Positions 1,626-32,695 of a stretch of 32,695 nt of DNA are shown here, in pieces. The notes under the pieces are model-generated. The model was not told where the DNA came from. It was given only the letters and a program-made list of their open reading frames with translations, and did not search any database. How positions within the stretch are numbered: position 1 is the first letter of the stretch; each line of letters starts with the position of its first letter. Source of the DNA: a virus. The stretch lies in IMG/VR virus record IMGVR_UViG_3300009068_000015, positions 1 to 32,695 of that record; one strand, 5' to 3'. Made by a program: the position numbers and the translations under genes.

Positions 1626-1991
1626 TTACAGGATAGTTTTACCCTTAACGAATACAACCTCTATCTTTCCATCCTGTGTTATGTTAGCAGTTTCTTTTGG
1701 CTTACCGTATACTCTGGTTAATAATGTTTCAAGTGAATAAAGGCTTCCTTTCTCCAAAGATTTACGCATAGCGTTAGCTATTGTTCTTTCCAGGACCGTT
1801 GCTTTAGGATTTCTAAATACTTCGCCTAATTCATCTAAGTCCATTGCCATCATTACCTGTATAGTATCATTTACTTCAGAAACTTTATATCCTGCTTCCT
1901 TTAGTAGAGTAACGTATTTCTTAGGTCTGCCATTAGGATTTAATACCTGTCCTTTCTGTATCTGATACTTTTCAATGTCTTTCTTTGCCAT
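1626..1991 (-). CDS. terS: Probable terminase small subunit, 121 aa
   Basis: The N-terminus has a KGQVLNPNGRPKK segment, the NPNGRPKG-type motif of DUF5681 and related proteins common among Bacteroidota small terminases. A helical region follows (about residues 25-95). The large terminase is encoded downstream, separated by small genes and the repeat and RNA block. Small terminases bind the pac or cos site and feed DNA to the motor. The sequence identifies the family only weakly, so another DNA-binding role remains possible. Confidence 0.65.
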   Translation of the reverse strand: MAKKDIEKYQIQKGQVLNPNGRPKKYVTLLKEAGYKVSEVNDTIQVMMAMDLDELGEVFRNPKATVLERTIANAMRKSLEKGSLYSLETLLTRVYGKPKETANITQDGKIEVVFVKGKTIL

Positions 1992-2007: not shown

Positions 2008-2706
2008 TTATTTTAATTCAAATGACCCAATTAATCTATTTGTTGCACCCGTTTTTTTCATATCTTTTAAACCTTTATGTTCACTACCTCTTCCAAATGA
2101 CATACATCTCCAATTAATTAATTTTTTTAATGCATAAATCAAACTTGGCGAAGATGTTGTAATAGTATATCTCCACTTTTCTTTTTTATATATCTTTCCG
2201 ACTTCTTCTAATAATTTAATTCCAAAACCTACTCCTTGATAATCAGGTAAAATTACTAATCTATGTACTTTTTTAATTGTCTTATCTATATTAGGCAAAT
2301 GTATTACTGATAAAAATCCAGCAATTTGATTATTAATTATTGCAATAAATACATTTGCTGCATTATTATGACTATGACTTAAATAGTGGTGTTTAGCAAA
2401 CATTTTCCAAATTGTTTTATCTGCTGTATTGAATATTTCAAATTTAATTTCTGGTCTATTTTTTTTTTGCCCTTCAAAACTTTGAAAGGTCATAGTATCA
2501 GTATTAAATATCCAATCAGGTAATAACCAATCTTGAACATCAAAATGACATGATAATGCTATAAACTTTTTATTAGATTTTCTAATTGCTTTTTGCATAG
2601 CAAAAGAACCTATTTGAGCAACATTTCTATCTACTACTGAAGTAAATTCATCAAAAACAAATAATTCTTTATCAGATAAAATAGCATTCGCTAAATCAAC
2701 TCTCAT
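2008..2706 (-). CDS. ABC-ATPase C-terminal half fused to a GNAT acyltransferase domain
   Basis: This 232-aa frame begins in the middle of an ABC ATPase. It has LFVFDE (Walker B, residues 15-20), a D-loop-like SVVDR, and a switch His in SCHFD (H54). A GNAT domain follows, with HHYLS at 106-110 and the acetyl-CoA-type motif LPDYQGVGFG at 153-162. It is in the same frame as the gene at 2710-3072, separated only by TAA and one AAA codon. The intact family is an ABC-type ATPase fused to a predicted acetyltransferase, as in COG2401. The start ATG at 2704-2706 sits 3 bases after the stop, so reinitiation is possible. Either a nonsense mutation has broken one gene, or two subunits are made. An HY pair ahead of the GNAT core recalls Mu Mom DNA modification enzymes, but that link is speculative. 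Confidence 0.75.
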   Translation of the reverse strand: MRVDLANAILSDKELFVFDEFTSVVDRNVAQIGSFAMQKAIRKSNKKFIALSCHFDVQDWLLPDWIFNTDTMTFQSFEGQKKNRPEIKFEIFNTADKTIWKMFAKHHYLSHSHNNAANVFIAIINNQIAGFLSVIHLPNIDKTIKKVHRLVILPDYQGVGFGIKLLEEVGKIYKKEKWRYTITTSSPSLIYALKKLINWRCMSFGRGSEHKGLKDMKKTGATNRLIGSFELK

Positions 2707-2709
2707 TTT

Positions 2710-3072
2710 TTACCCATTACTTAAAACTGAATAAGGCTTTAACCATGAAGGAGGAGAACTAAATCCAACTGAATTAAAAGCATTTGTTATTTCTTCAACA
2801 GATTTATCTTTAGGCATATCATCCAAAATACAATTTTGACTATATTGAAAATTTGTTATGTATTCTTCAGGAAATAATTCTTTTGCTATTGTTGTTTTTC
2901 CTGTTCCACTTTTTCCAATAATTAAACCTATTTGCCAATTATTTGGTAAATCTATATTACCTTCAAATTGTTCAATTATTTCTTCATTTTGTAAATCAAA
3001 TTTTCCAATTACTGAAGCTACTCTAAATGATTTATTAGGCTTTGTTTTTCTTATAATGTTAAAAGTCGGCAT
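2710..3072 (-). CDS. ABC-ATPase N-terminal half, ends at an in-frame stop
   Basis: The 120-aa product carries Walker A GKSGTGKT at residues 53-60 and ends with SVLSNG. That is the start of the ABC signature (LSNG followed normally by E or Q, then K). The expected next residue is replaced by TAA at 2710-2712, after which the frame continues as KMRVDLA into the gene at 2008-2706. On its own this half lacks Walker B and cannot hydrolyse ATP in the usual way. Its start overlaps the ParB-like gene by 22 bases. A single G-to-T or C-to-T change would explain the stop. Confidence 0.75.
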   Translation of the reverse strand: MPTFNIIRKTKPNKSFRVASVIGKFDLQNEEIIEQFEGNIDLPNNWQIGLIIGKSGTGKTTIAKELFPEEYITNFQYSQNCILDDMPKDKSVEEITNAFNSVGFSSPPSWLKPYSVLSNG

Positions 3073-3563
3073 TGATAATTTTGTTCTATTAGTTTATTGT
3101 AAGTTGTTTCTTGTTCCATTTCATCTTTACATATAATTTCTATTCTAAATTCAGATTTTATATTATCAGATAAATCTTTTAATTCTTTTTCATCTTCAAT
3201 TTTAAAATTAGGAATATCCAATCCCCATTCTTCAAGTTTATCTACATCCCAGTTATTAGCAAGGTCATCCCAATCCCACTCTCCGAATCCTACATTATCT
3301 TTAATGATAAATTCTTTTAGTTCTTCTTCGCTAAAATCTTTAGCTTGTTTAATCCATGTATCAGGAATATCCTTATATCCTAATTCATTTAATGCTTTCA
3401 ATCTCATATTGCCACCTTGAACAATAAAGTTATCATCTACTACGATAGGTCTTAACTCCATCATCTTTGGAAGTGCCTTTATTGATTCGCATAGTTTTTT
3501 AAACTTATCATCCTTAATAATTCTTGGATTATTAGGATTGCTTTTAATCTGACTTATTTTCAT
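3051..3563 (-). CDS. ParB-like nuclease-domain protein, 170 aa
   Basis: Residues 1-65 match the ParB/Srx-like fold: SNPNNPR, then RPIVVDDNFIVQGGNMRLKALNELGY, containing the GGxxRxxAL-type motif. A C-terminal region with Trp and acidic residues (GEWDWDDLANNWD) is common in phage ParB-like proteins encoded beside DNA-modifying enzymes. The last 22 bases overlap the ABC-ATPase start, and the first 4 overlap the methyltransferase stop, so these genes are tightly coupled. A role in DNA recognition or modification is inferred. It is unlikely to be a plasmid-style segregation ParB because no ParA is present. Confidence 0.8.
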   Translation of the reverse strand: MKISQIKSNPNNPRIIKDDKFKKLCESIKALPKMMELRPIVVDDNFIVQGGNMRLKALNELGYKDIPDTWIKQAKDFSEEELKEFIIKDNVGFGEWDWDDLANNWDVDKLEEWGLDIPNFKIEDEKELKDLSDNIKSEFRIEIICKDEMEQETTYNKLIEQNYQCRLLTL

Positions 3564-6900: not shown

Positions 6901-7626
6901 TTATGAAGTACAAGCACAATCAAATGCAGGTTTAATTTCGCTTAAATCGTAATCTTTAAATAAATTATTTTGAGCAATATCTCTTAATTGTTTTATAGTA
7001 GTTCCATTAAAATAAGTATATCCTTTTCCTATATTTTTATTATTTTCTTCATCCTTAATCCAATCTTCAGCTAATTCTGGATAACTTGCTAAAATAGACA
7101 TAATTGCATTTTTGCCTTTCATAAAGCATAAAGTACAATTTCCTAATATTGAAGGTATTTCAAGATTGTATTCTTTTTTGCTCCAGTAATCATTTATAAT
7201 TTTTTTATCTATTTTATTGTCAAATAATGGAAATTTATCAATAACTCCTTTCCACATTTGTTTTCTACGTTTAACTCTTAATGGTTCATCATATCTAAAA
7301 CCTATAATATTTTCATATTTAATTAAACCTAAACTTCTTAAATATCTTCTTGCAGTTTTTATCTTTAATTCAACAGTACAAAATCTTTTAAAATTATTAG
7401 GTATCTGTTTTGTTCTATTTAATAATTCACGAAATCCTCCATCATAAGATAAACGAATAATTGGAATATTCTCATGTGATTCAAAATCATTTATGAATTT
7501 ATATGTTTTTGGATGCTCCCTTCCTGTATCGCAAAATAAAACTAAATCTCCTTCATGATATTCATGTATGGTCATGTAAGCAGAAGTTTTCCCTCCACTA
7601 AAGTTTATTATTCTTTGCATAATCAA
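6901..7626 (-). CDS. PAPS-reductase-like (adenosine phosphosulfate/ATP-PPi loop) protein
   Basis: The N-terminus has the PP-loop NFSGGKTSAYM, followed by VLFCDTGREHP. Cysteines appear in RFCTVELK, GNCTLCFMKGKN and the C-terminal DCACTS, suggesting an iron-sulfur or metal site. Phage relatives are annotated as phosphoadenosine phosphosulfate reductase, but they lack sulfate pathway partners. Related DndC-type proteins act in DNA phosphorothioation. Here no other Dnd proteins are visible, so the role is unknown. The start may be the second Met (7620), and the gene overlaps its upstream neighbour by 23-29 bases. Confidence 0.8.
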   Translation of the reverse strand: MIMQRIINFSGGKTSAYMTIHEYHEGDLVLFCDTGREHPKTYKFINDFESHENIPIIRLSYDGGFRELLNRTKQIPNNFKRFCTVELKIKTARRYLRSLGLIKYENIIGFRYDEPLRVKRRKQMWKGVIDKFPLFDNKIDKKIINDYWSKKEYNLEIPSILGNCTLCFMKGKNAIMSILASYPELAEDWIKDEENNKNIGKGYTYFNGTTIKQLRDIAQNNLFKDYDLSEIKPAFDCACTS

Positions 7627-9477: not shown

Positions 9478-10305
9478 TTATTTCCATAAAGTTGGAGTTG
9501 TTTTTTCTATTTTAGATTTAGCAAATCCATAGTTTTCAATATCAATTTTGTTTTGTTTTTCTTCCATTAACCATTTATTTGCTTTTGTCCAAAATTCTTT
9601 TTTTATTTCAAAACCATATCCTTTTCTATTTAATCTTTCTGCTGCTATTAAGGTAGATCCACTTCCAGCACATGGATCAATAACAACATCTCCTTCATCG
9701 GTAAAAATAGAAATCAATGTTTTTAATAATTCAATAGGTTTTTGTGTAGGATGTATTTTTTCGCTTTCACTATCTCTTGGCCAGTCAATACAATTAAAAA
9801 TCATTTTACCATTATTTCTAAATTTAGGCAATCTATCACGATATAATACTAATCCATATTCACAATTGCCAACTATTTTCATATTAGCTTTTAATACCTG
9901 AGCTGAGAAATTTTTTCTAAAAACTAAATTTATATAATTATTTAATCCATATCTTTTTCCTAATTCAATTAAATACATTTGCTGATCAAAAGCACAAAAT
10001 ATAATCATGCAAGGAGCTTCACTTTTTTGCCTTGATTCACCTTCAACTTTTATTTTTTTATTTTCAGCTTTTAACATAGTAGAGCAAAAGTGCATAAATT
10101 CAGCAGGTCTAAAATCTTCATCAGTATCAAAAAATGATTTTCCAGCTAATTCACTTTCTCCATTTTGATTATCTCCATCTTTATACCATGCAGGATTAGA
10201 AGCATATGCATTATTACCTAAATTATAAGGTATATCTGCAATAATCAATTGAGCCTTTGGAATCGTATATCTTTTATAATTTTGAAAATGATCTCTATAT
10301 ATCAT
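9478..10305 (-). CDS. N6-adenine/N4-cytosine DNA methyltransferase (beta-type order), 275 aa
   Basis: Motif IV appears as IADIPYNLG near residue 23, a DIPY form of the usual DPPY. The SAM-binding FxGxG-type motif I appears late as VIDPCAGSGSTLIAAERL near residue 210, preceded by HPTQKPIELLKTLI. This order (catalytic motif first, SAM motif last) marks the N4/N6 amino-methyltransferases of the beta group. No restriction enzyme partner is nearby, so it is probably an orphan protecting phage DNA. The gene is 3 bases from its upstream neighbour. Confidence 0.9.
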   Translation of the reverse strand: MIYRDHFQNYKRYTIPKAQLIIADIPYNLGNNAYASNPAWYKDGDNQNGESELAGKSFFDTDEDFRPAEFMHFCSTMLKAENKKIKVEGESRQKSEAPCMIIFCAFDQQMYLIELGKRYGLNNYINLVFRKNFSAQVLKANMKIVGNCEYGLVLYRDRLPKFRNNGKMIFNCIDWPRDSESEKIHPTQKPIELLKTLISIFTDEGDVVIDPCAGSGSTLIAAERLNRKGYGFEIKKEFWTKANKWLMEEKQNKIDIENYGFAKSKIEKTTPTLWK

Positions 10306-12898: not shown

Positions 12899-13159
12899 CT
12901 AATCTTCATCATCGTCAAATAATTCATCGTGCATCTCATTAATGCAGTCATCAATTATCCTAAGAGATTTTCTCATTATTCTTTTAATTCTTTTAGCATC
13001 TTCTTTTGTCATTATTCCTGTATCAAGTCCTTCAACAGAAGAAATAGCATAGAAAGCACAACTGATATAATCAGTCCTTGTAGTATATTCTACATCTAAC
13101 TCAGGTACTTCTTCCTTTTCAACTTCTTCCGGTGTAGGTTCTTCTAATTCTTTATCCAT
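12899..13159 (-). CDS. Small acidic protein, 86 aa
   Basis: Very acidic at both ends (MDKELEEPTPEEVEKEEVPE and a DDDED tail). The centre has a helical part with basic clusters (KRIKRIMRKSLRIID). The start codon overlaps the stop of the preceding gene as TAATG. Such acidic proteins may mimic DNA or act as inhibitors, but nothing here proves it. Confidence 0.6.
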   Translation of the reverse strand: MDKELEEPTPEEVEKEEVPELDVEYTTRTDYISCAFYAISSVEGLDTGIMTKEDAKRIKRIMRKSLRIIDDCINEMHDELFDDDED

Positions 13160-31686: not shown

Positions 31687-32695
31687 TTAGATATATCTAT
31701 AAACGCCTGAATATTTGTGTTCATTTTTACACTTTACTGCAAGTGCTAAAGCGTTCACACAATCATCGTGGTATCCAGTAGGAGCATTGTATCTAACTCC
31801 TGTAGCTGTGTATTGGTATTCAAAAACATCTAATTCATCTTTTATAGGACCTTCAGGGAAAGCTATTTGATTATTGTGGATAGATGAGGATAATAATTCC
31901 ATCAATTGTTGCTTTGATGTAGATGTATATTTAAATCCGTGCATTGAATTAAAGTTCTTTTGTAGGTCCTCAGTAATAGCATCTCCTACGCCTGTGCTAT
32001 CTATCATAACAGGTTTACTTCTGTCAATAGTTAATATCGTTTCCTTTGTCTGCTTCCAATCCTTTTGGAATCTATTGAAATAAGATACGTTTCCGTTAAT
32101 ATCAAGTCCTACTATAACAGTCCAGTCAAATGACTTAGCTAAATCTATTCCGTAGTAAGCAGCAGGTAAGTTTGAGATAGGCTTAATACATTCAGTTATT
32201 TTATTAGTTCCGAATGGATTCGCTGCGTTCTCCATTGGATTCGCCATATATTCCTGCTCAAATACTGCTTCAGGAAGTTGCCTTCGTGCATCATCAATCT
32301 CATCTTTGTCAATATAAGGATTATCGTAAGTAGAGAATTTAAATGACTGCCAATCTTCGCCTCCTTTCATGAATAGCGAATAGAAATAGTTTTTCCCTTT
32401 AGGCGTGCTGACAAACAATGCCCTACCTTTATAATCTGTCAAAGTAGGTCTTATTGAGTTTAGCCAACCATCTTCAAGGTTAGGAATAAATGAAGCCTCA
32501 TCAATAACTACAAAGTGAAATTTGCGACCTCTTAAATTATCTAATCTTTCTCCGGTAAAAAACTCAACTGAACCTTTAGTAGGGAATGATATTATCAGGT
32601 CCGACTTATTGTTTTCAAATGGAATAACCTGCGTAAGTTTCTCAAAGAATGTTTTAGCAAGTTTATAAGTAGGAGTTATGTATGCTACATTATAA
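31687..32695 (-). CDS. terL: Terminase large subunit, C-terminal part (continues from 266)
   Basis: The frame is open to the right edge of the window and is continuous with the piece at 1-266 once the 123-bp repeat is merged. It holds Walker B FVVIDEA with the catalytic E114, a motif III-like VSTP near residue 143, and an RNase H-like nuclease domain. Acidic nuclease candidates are in GIDLAKSFDWT (about residue 230), MIDSTGVGDA, and the C-terminal YHDDCVNALALA. The gene packages DNA into proheads together with the small terminase at 1626-1991. The next gene starts 53 bases downstream, behind a repeated leader sequence. The ATG-like start at 32440-32442 is an internal TTG and is not a real start. 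Confidence 0.95.
   Translation of the reverse strand, partial: YNVAYITPTYKLAKTFFEKLTQVIPFENNKSDLIISFPTKGSVEFFTGERLDNLRGRKFHFVVIDEASFIPNLEDGWLNSIRPTLTDYKGRALFVSTPKGKNYFYSLFMKGGEDWQSFKFSTYDNPYIDKDEIDDARRQLPEAVFEQEYMANPMENAANPFGTNKITECIKPISNLPAAYYGIDLAKSFDWTVIVGLDINGNVSYFNRFQKDWKQTKETILTIDRSKPVMIDSTGVGDAITEDLQKNFNSMHGFKYTSTSKQQLMELLSSSIHNNQIAFPEGPIKDELDVFEYQYTATGVRYNAPTGYHDDCVNALALAVKCKNEHKYSGVYRYI
32573..32695. repeat. Terminal direct repeat, right copy
   Basis: Exact second copy of bases 1-123. Position 32572 joins to position 1 in the circular form. The window ends inside the large terminase gene, which resumes at 123 and runs to its start codon at 266. Confidence 0.97.

Follow-up and report, generated by a model that had tools for sequence, protein, structure and literature searches.

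A stop codon in the ABC signature of a phage ABC-ATPase/GNAT gene and a candidate slippage site in its interdomain linker

The viral record IMGVR_UViG_3300009068_000015, whose whole stretch of 32,695 nucleotides is referred to here as the window, contains a gene for a protein with an ABC ATPase and a GNAT domain that is interrupted by one stop codon, and the question raised by this locus is what that stop codon means. Our analysis attributes it to a change in a single lineage and points to a second interruption, located in the linker between the two domains and widespread in the family.

Organization of the interrupted gene and its surroundings

The minus-strand frame from 3072 to 2008 is a single open reading frame with one internal stop, and around this position its translation reads PYSVLSNG, stop, KMRVDLANAIL. 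The features of the locus are the following:

3051..3563, minus strand: ParB-like gene identified by profile search, with a 22-nt overlap with the ABC gene
2008..3072, minus strand: ABC-ATPase/GNAT gene with the internal stop; 354 codons and a terminal stop when read through
2710..3072, minus strand: N-terminal fragment of 120 aa, from Walker A to LSNG, terminated by the internal TAA (ORF list, translation)
2890..2916, minus strand: Walker A GKSGTGKTT, residues 53-61 (translation, alignment)
2710..2724, minus strand: ABC signature, LSNG followed by Q or the stop, residues 117-121 (translation, alignment)
2710..2712, minus strand: internal TAA at codon 121, where the close relatives compared all have Q or E
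2008..2706, minus strand: C-terminal fragment of 232 aa from the ATG at 2706, with the remaining ABC domain and the GNAT domain; putatively translated on its own
2647..2664, minus strand: Walker B LFVFDE, residues 137-142 (translation, alignment)
2221..2250, minus strand: GNAT acyl-CoA motif LPDYQGVGFG, residues 275-284 (translation, alignment)
1626..1991, minus strand: next gene downstream, with a weak DUF5681 match; possibly a small terminase, judging by its position

Walker A lies 5' of the TAA, and Walker B, the D-loop, the H-loop and the GNAT domain lie 3' of it; the TAA at 2712-2710 is followed by AAA and then, three bases past the stop, by an ATG at 2706-2704. This arrangement is the one described in the initial annotation, in which a single stop within the ABC signature divides an ABC-ATPase/GNAT gene into two in-phase frames, and the profile searches agree with it. 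The read-through protein matches phrog_11143 over nearly its whole length (1.1e-96, residues 6-333), as well as the Pfam profiles ABC_tran (3.6e-9) and Acetyltransf_7 (3.4e-7), and each fragment alone matches consecutive parts of phrog_11143. Such same-frame continuity over a 354-residue homologue is far beyond chance. The gene has a GNAT domain with its acyl-CoA motif, and its ABC domain has all the motifs, with a stop as the fifth residue of the signature, where the relatives are intact; judged by its sequence, it is a broken copy of a gene that by descent belongs to the phrog_11143 ABC-GNAT family, not an intact member. A structure model of moderate quality (pLDDT 70, pTM 0.49), whose PDB matches are generic ABC and GNAT folds only, places the TAA at the start of the signature helix (119-132).

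The 22-nt overlap between the ParB and ABC genes is the same in 135 of the 141 relatives measured, and in annotated phages the ParB-ABC-GNAT group lies directly upstream of the terminase genes. Positions 1-123 and 32573-32695 of the window form an identical terminal repeat of 123 bp, and the gene for the large terminase spans the ends of the record, which has the appearance of a complete genome, circularly permuted and about 32,572 bp long. Elsewhere in the window are a PAPS-reductase-like gene (6901-7626; SspD model, 2.8e-24; also phrog_424) and a DNA methyltransferase-like gene (9478-10305; phrog_67, 4.5e-47).

Distribution and meaning of the stop at codon 121

The close comparison set consisted of 80 loci from IMG/VR, among which the TAA at codon 121 is present only in the window and in one near-identical contig. 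The 57 unique close relatives have CAA (53), CAG (3) or GAA (1) at this codon, so that the stop does replace the E/Q of the signature, as had been proposed, with Q in 56 of them and E in the remaining one. It is important to note that our first search for relatives was biased toward Q, given that one of its patterns contained the residue of codon 121; two further scans were consequently carried out. A scan of IMG/VR for any stop in the signature motif found the near-identical contig and one chance match (L082), which we discarded as unrelated DNA, and the version of the pattern with Q or E gave at least 120 matches. When the C-terminal half was used as the query, excluding codon 121, the stop was again found in the near-identical contig alone. 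No relative other than this contig has a split inside the ABC signature. The initial annotation had suggested looking for the same stop in related phages; apart from the near-identical contig, the relatives proved to be uninterrupted at codon 121. Among 239 unique family loci, only one other stop breaks the aligned frame outside the linker: Tenacibaculum phage pT24 has a TGA at a different position, within the GNAT part of its gene (L210:3694-3696), which is annotated there as two ABC transporter genes.

The contig sharing the TAA, IMGVR_UViG_3300010885_022288, aligns with the window over 15,805 bp with 0 mismatches and one 1-bp gap (99.994%), and this gap, at window position 12977, is the sole difference between the two assemblies. 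Both probably represent the same virus population, so that the shared stop counts against an assembly slip, yet it is not an independent biological replicate. Both assemblies have the same base here, although a 1-bp gap distinguishes them at another position, and this makes it very unlikely that the TAA reflects an error in sequencing or assembly, or the calling of a minority allele as the consensus.

Since all the other close relatives compared have Q or E at this position, we consider it very likely that the window carries a phage ParB-ABC-GNAT-type gene (phrog_11143) with a single lineage-specific nonsense change in the ABC signature, from CAA to TAA, which takes one transition. A fresh nonsense mutation is thus the best of the three options that the initial annotation had offered. 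Constraint was measured by pairwise dN between the window and its nearest relatives, in comparison with intact pairs of similar divergence: the values are 0.19 versus 0.14 for residues 1-120, 0.09 versus 0.08 for 122-205, and 0.19 versus 0.24 for 206-354, and all three parts lie within about 1.4 SD of the intact-pair values. In columns conserved at 95% or more, there are 0 departures after the stop and four mild departures before it (93rd percentile), the latter counting against our preferred explanation. Because both halves are intact and normally constrained, the stop is probably recent, or else both pieces are still useful; the data fit either case.

The second of these cases would correspond to a genuine split enzyme, in which pieces of 120 and 232 aa are both translated, by reinitiation at TAA-AAA-ATG, and reassemble as a working ABC-GNAT protein. 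The intactness of both halves and the separation of ABC and GNAT in other lineages speak for it, as does the ATG three bases past the stop, which together with its A-rich surroundings would be in keeping with a functional protein made of two pieces and thereby counts against a simple nonsense change. However, those other lineages separate the domains at the linker, and none of the relatives is interrupted within the signature; the break in the window is located where the signature helix begins, and its ATG corresponds to a normal conserved Met in the intact protein. The two-subunit enzyme suggested in the initial annotation is therefore improbable.

Programmed readthrough of the TAA into a full-length protein, another of the suggested options, would account for the open and conserved frame past the stop. 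This possibility is remote given that the TAA is confined to one lineage and relatives have a sense codon, that a TAA followed by A, as in the TAAA context found here, is an efficient stop, that TAA is the usual terminator in the window, and that we found no tRNA gene in the window. A suppressor tRNA was rejected on this last ground. An altered genetic code with TAA as glutamine is still harder to credit. It would agree with the Q at codon 121 of all close relatives but one; nevertheless, 27 of the 39 tabulated ORFs of the window end in TAA, which contradicts a reassignment, and the ABC-GNAT gene itself ends in TAA where its relatives end.

If the nonsense change is the correct explanation, it would be a recent event, and the TAA would probably have inactivated the ABC ATPase. 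Ribosomes terminating there may begin again at the nearby ATG, a reinitiation that is plausible from the sequence and that would produce a C-terminal fragment whose GNAT domain is intact. It also has to be considered, against a simple loss, that the TAA is the consensus in two assemblies, and hence that the virus persists with the stop. In itself, the stop has little import beyond a caution against taking the gene split of one genome as design.

A conserved A10 run and frame changes in the interdomain linker

The linker between the two domains, 240 bases downstream of the TAA, has the sequence GAA GGG CAA AAA AAA AAT AGA CCA, and its most conspicuous element is the longest A-run on the coding strand of the window:

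2459..2468, minus strand: A10 run within the linker, a candidate site of slippage, where insertion of a single A creates a TAG immediately

The run is invariant in 95 close in-frame relatives (at least 65% identity), among which codons 202-206 never vary synonymously. No stretch of this kind elsewhere in the gene is as long, and the second most constrained region is the gene start, where the ParB gene overlaps. Codon choice is biased: lysines 203 and 204 are encoded by AAA in 100% of cases, compared with 49-97% for conserved lysines elsewhere, and glycine 201 by GGG in 94%, compared with 1-23% for other conserved glycines. The run is thus conserved beyond coding need (codons 202-206, G201). 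In the same region, threonine 195 (window 2488-2490) is ACC in about 90% of relatives versus 10% gene-wide, and it is possibly part of the slippage context.

One extra A would change the reading to AAA AAA AAA TAG, an instant stop, and in nearly all A10 members an added A gives an immediate TAG or TAA. Among the 229 unique relatives that have both domains, 192 have GNAT and ABC in one frame; GNAT lies in the -1 frame in 33 relatives and in the +1 frame in four, and in these 37 cases the switch is at or near an A-run, a T-run or a T_TTT motif. This change of frame in the linker, 80 codons beyond the position of the TAA, is a widespread interruption in the family and was absent from the initial annotation.

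The frame is predicted by the base after the run. With an A10 followed by T, 103 of 104 relatives are in frame; an A11 followed by T is in the +1 frame in four of four, reading KKK-stop; and a run of 9-10 A followed by G is in the -1 frame in 15 of 16 (nine of length 9 and six of length 10). In 15 of the 16 other -1 relatives, which lack an A-run, a T_TTT motif lies in frame near the linker, and given that T_TTT is common in AT-rich DNA, its short sites are weak evidence. T-runs of at least 7 (T7-T9) occur in seven -1 relatives with T_TTT, including one that has an A-run as well. In the -1 members, the GNAT homology mostly begins right at the linker, so that, as with the stop produced by an added A, the shifted frame leads to a defined product. 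For 10 of these 33 members, a separate start cannot account for the GNAT frame, since it has no ATG, GTG or TTG before the HYL motif. On a quick tree (FastTree), which has many weak branches, there are 22 changes over six frame states.

These results suggest that the ABC-GNAT family likely uses programmed slippage at the linker to produce an ABC-only and an ABC-GNAT protein at a set ratio, keeping the two-product outcome while site and polarity vary. In intact relatives, slippage at the A10 or at A/T-rich sites would yield both proteins from one gene: A10 lineages would encode the fused form in frame and truncate it by a slip, and other lineages would have the short form as their in-frame product (A9-A11, T7-T9 or T_TTT motifs) and obtain the fusion by a slip. 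No stable RNA fold was found 3' of the run in 11 sequences (z of -0.5 to 2.0, mononucleotide shuffles). A downstream stimulatory structure is not required in every case of ribosomal -1 frameshifting; this result leans toward transcriptional slippage over ribosomal frameshifting.

An alternative that we regard as rather unlikely is that replication errors switch the A10 run as a phase-variable homopolymer, or that the run is a site of protein binding or of packaging. Exact scans of IMG/VR for the TAGACC context found A11 in five contigs and A9 in two, alleles that make phase variation a live rival for this context, and the gene adjoins terminase genes in other phages. On the other hand, a random switch should yield mixed states, and the relatives with 9-10 A followed by G keep an almost constant -1 relation despite their varying tract length, which speaks against phase variation as the whole story; a fixed binding site would not explain the T_TTT near the linker of the -1 relatives that lack an A-run.

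Programmed slippage at the linker is a better lead than the stop and, if confirmed, would put a known mechanism to a new use. One gene would then yield two defined products in a phage system that is widespread but uncharacterised and for which DNA modification is predicted, which would explain why many records annotate separate 'ABC transporter' and 'hypothetical' genes, and searches for the modified base would need co-expression of the ATPase alone and the ATPase-GNAT protein. We found no reports of frameshifting for the ABC-GNAT family in the part of the literature covered.

Predicted function and comparison with known systems

A 2021 survey states that a GNAT coupled with an ABC ATPase had earlier been predicted to introduce an acyl modification of unknown nature on a DNA base, and its named example is Tenacibaculum phage pT24 (PMC7824862), which is a direct tblastn match of the window protein. 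The survey, as searched, makes no mention of a frame change at the linker. Acylation of a DNA base is thus the published prediction for the family (PMC7824862), in agreement with the DNA-modification function that the initial annotation had thought plausible. The Aravind-group GNAT/ABC ATPase system shares with the window the ABC and GNAT architecture and, in many members, the ParB-like upstream gene; the window copy differs by the stop in its ABC signature. The Mom protein of phage Mu is also a GNAT-fold enzyme that modifies phage DNA, according to the same survey (PMC7824862), and it differs from the window protein in being without an ABC domain. A comparison with Mom-like proteins had been proposed for this locus; no Mom-named model of Pfam or PHROGs matched the window protein, only general GNAT models, a weak negative. 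Defence-system models gave partial ABC-type matches only.

Closer in organization are Orf23-25 of Lactococcus phage P335 and the Streptococcus Javan phages, which have the same ParB, ABC and GNAT order upstream of the terminase and the same 22-nt ParB-ABC overlap as the window. Unlike in the window, their ABC and GNAT are in different frames that meet at the linker, not at the signature.

With regard to the mechanism, the in-frame product of Escherichia coli dnaX is the long form, and a slip at its A-run leads to an immediate stop and a short form, by ribosomal -1 frameshifting with stimulators. The A10 lineages resemble it in having an in-frame long form that a slip at the A-run would truncate, and differ in that no downstream RNA structure was found at the A10. 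In tssM1 of Citrobacter rodentium, transcriptional slippage at an A11 run produces a short and a long protein, both of which are needed (PMC4256274). Both cases have a homopolymeric A-run beside a stop codon; the proteins are unrelated, and slippage was experimentally shown in tssM1 and is deduced from sequence comparisons here. Moreover, the usual state of the window family is in frame, so that slippage would truncate the protein, as it does in dnaX.
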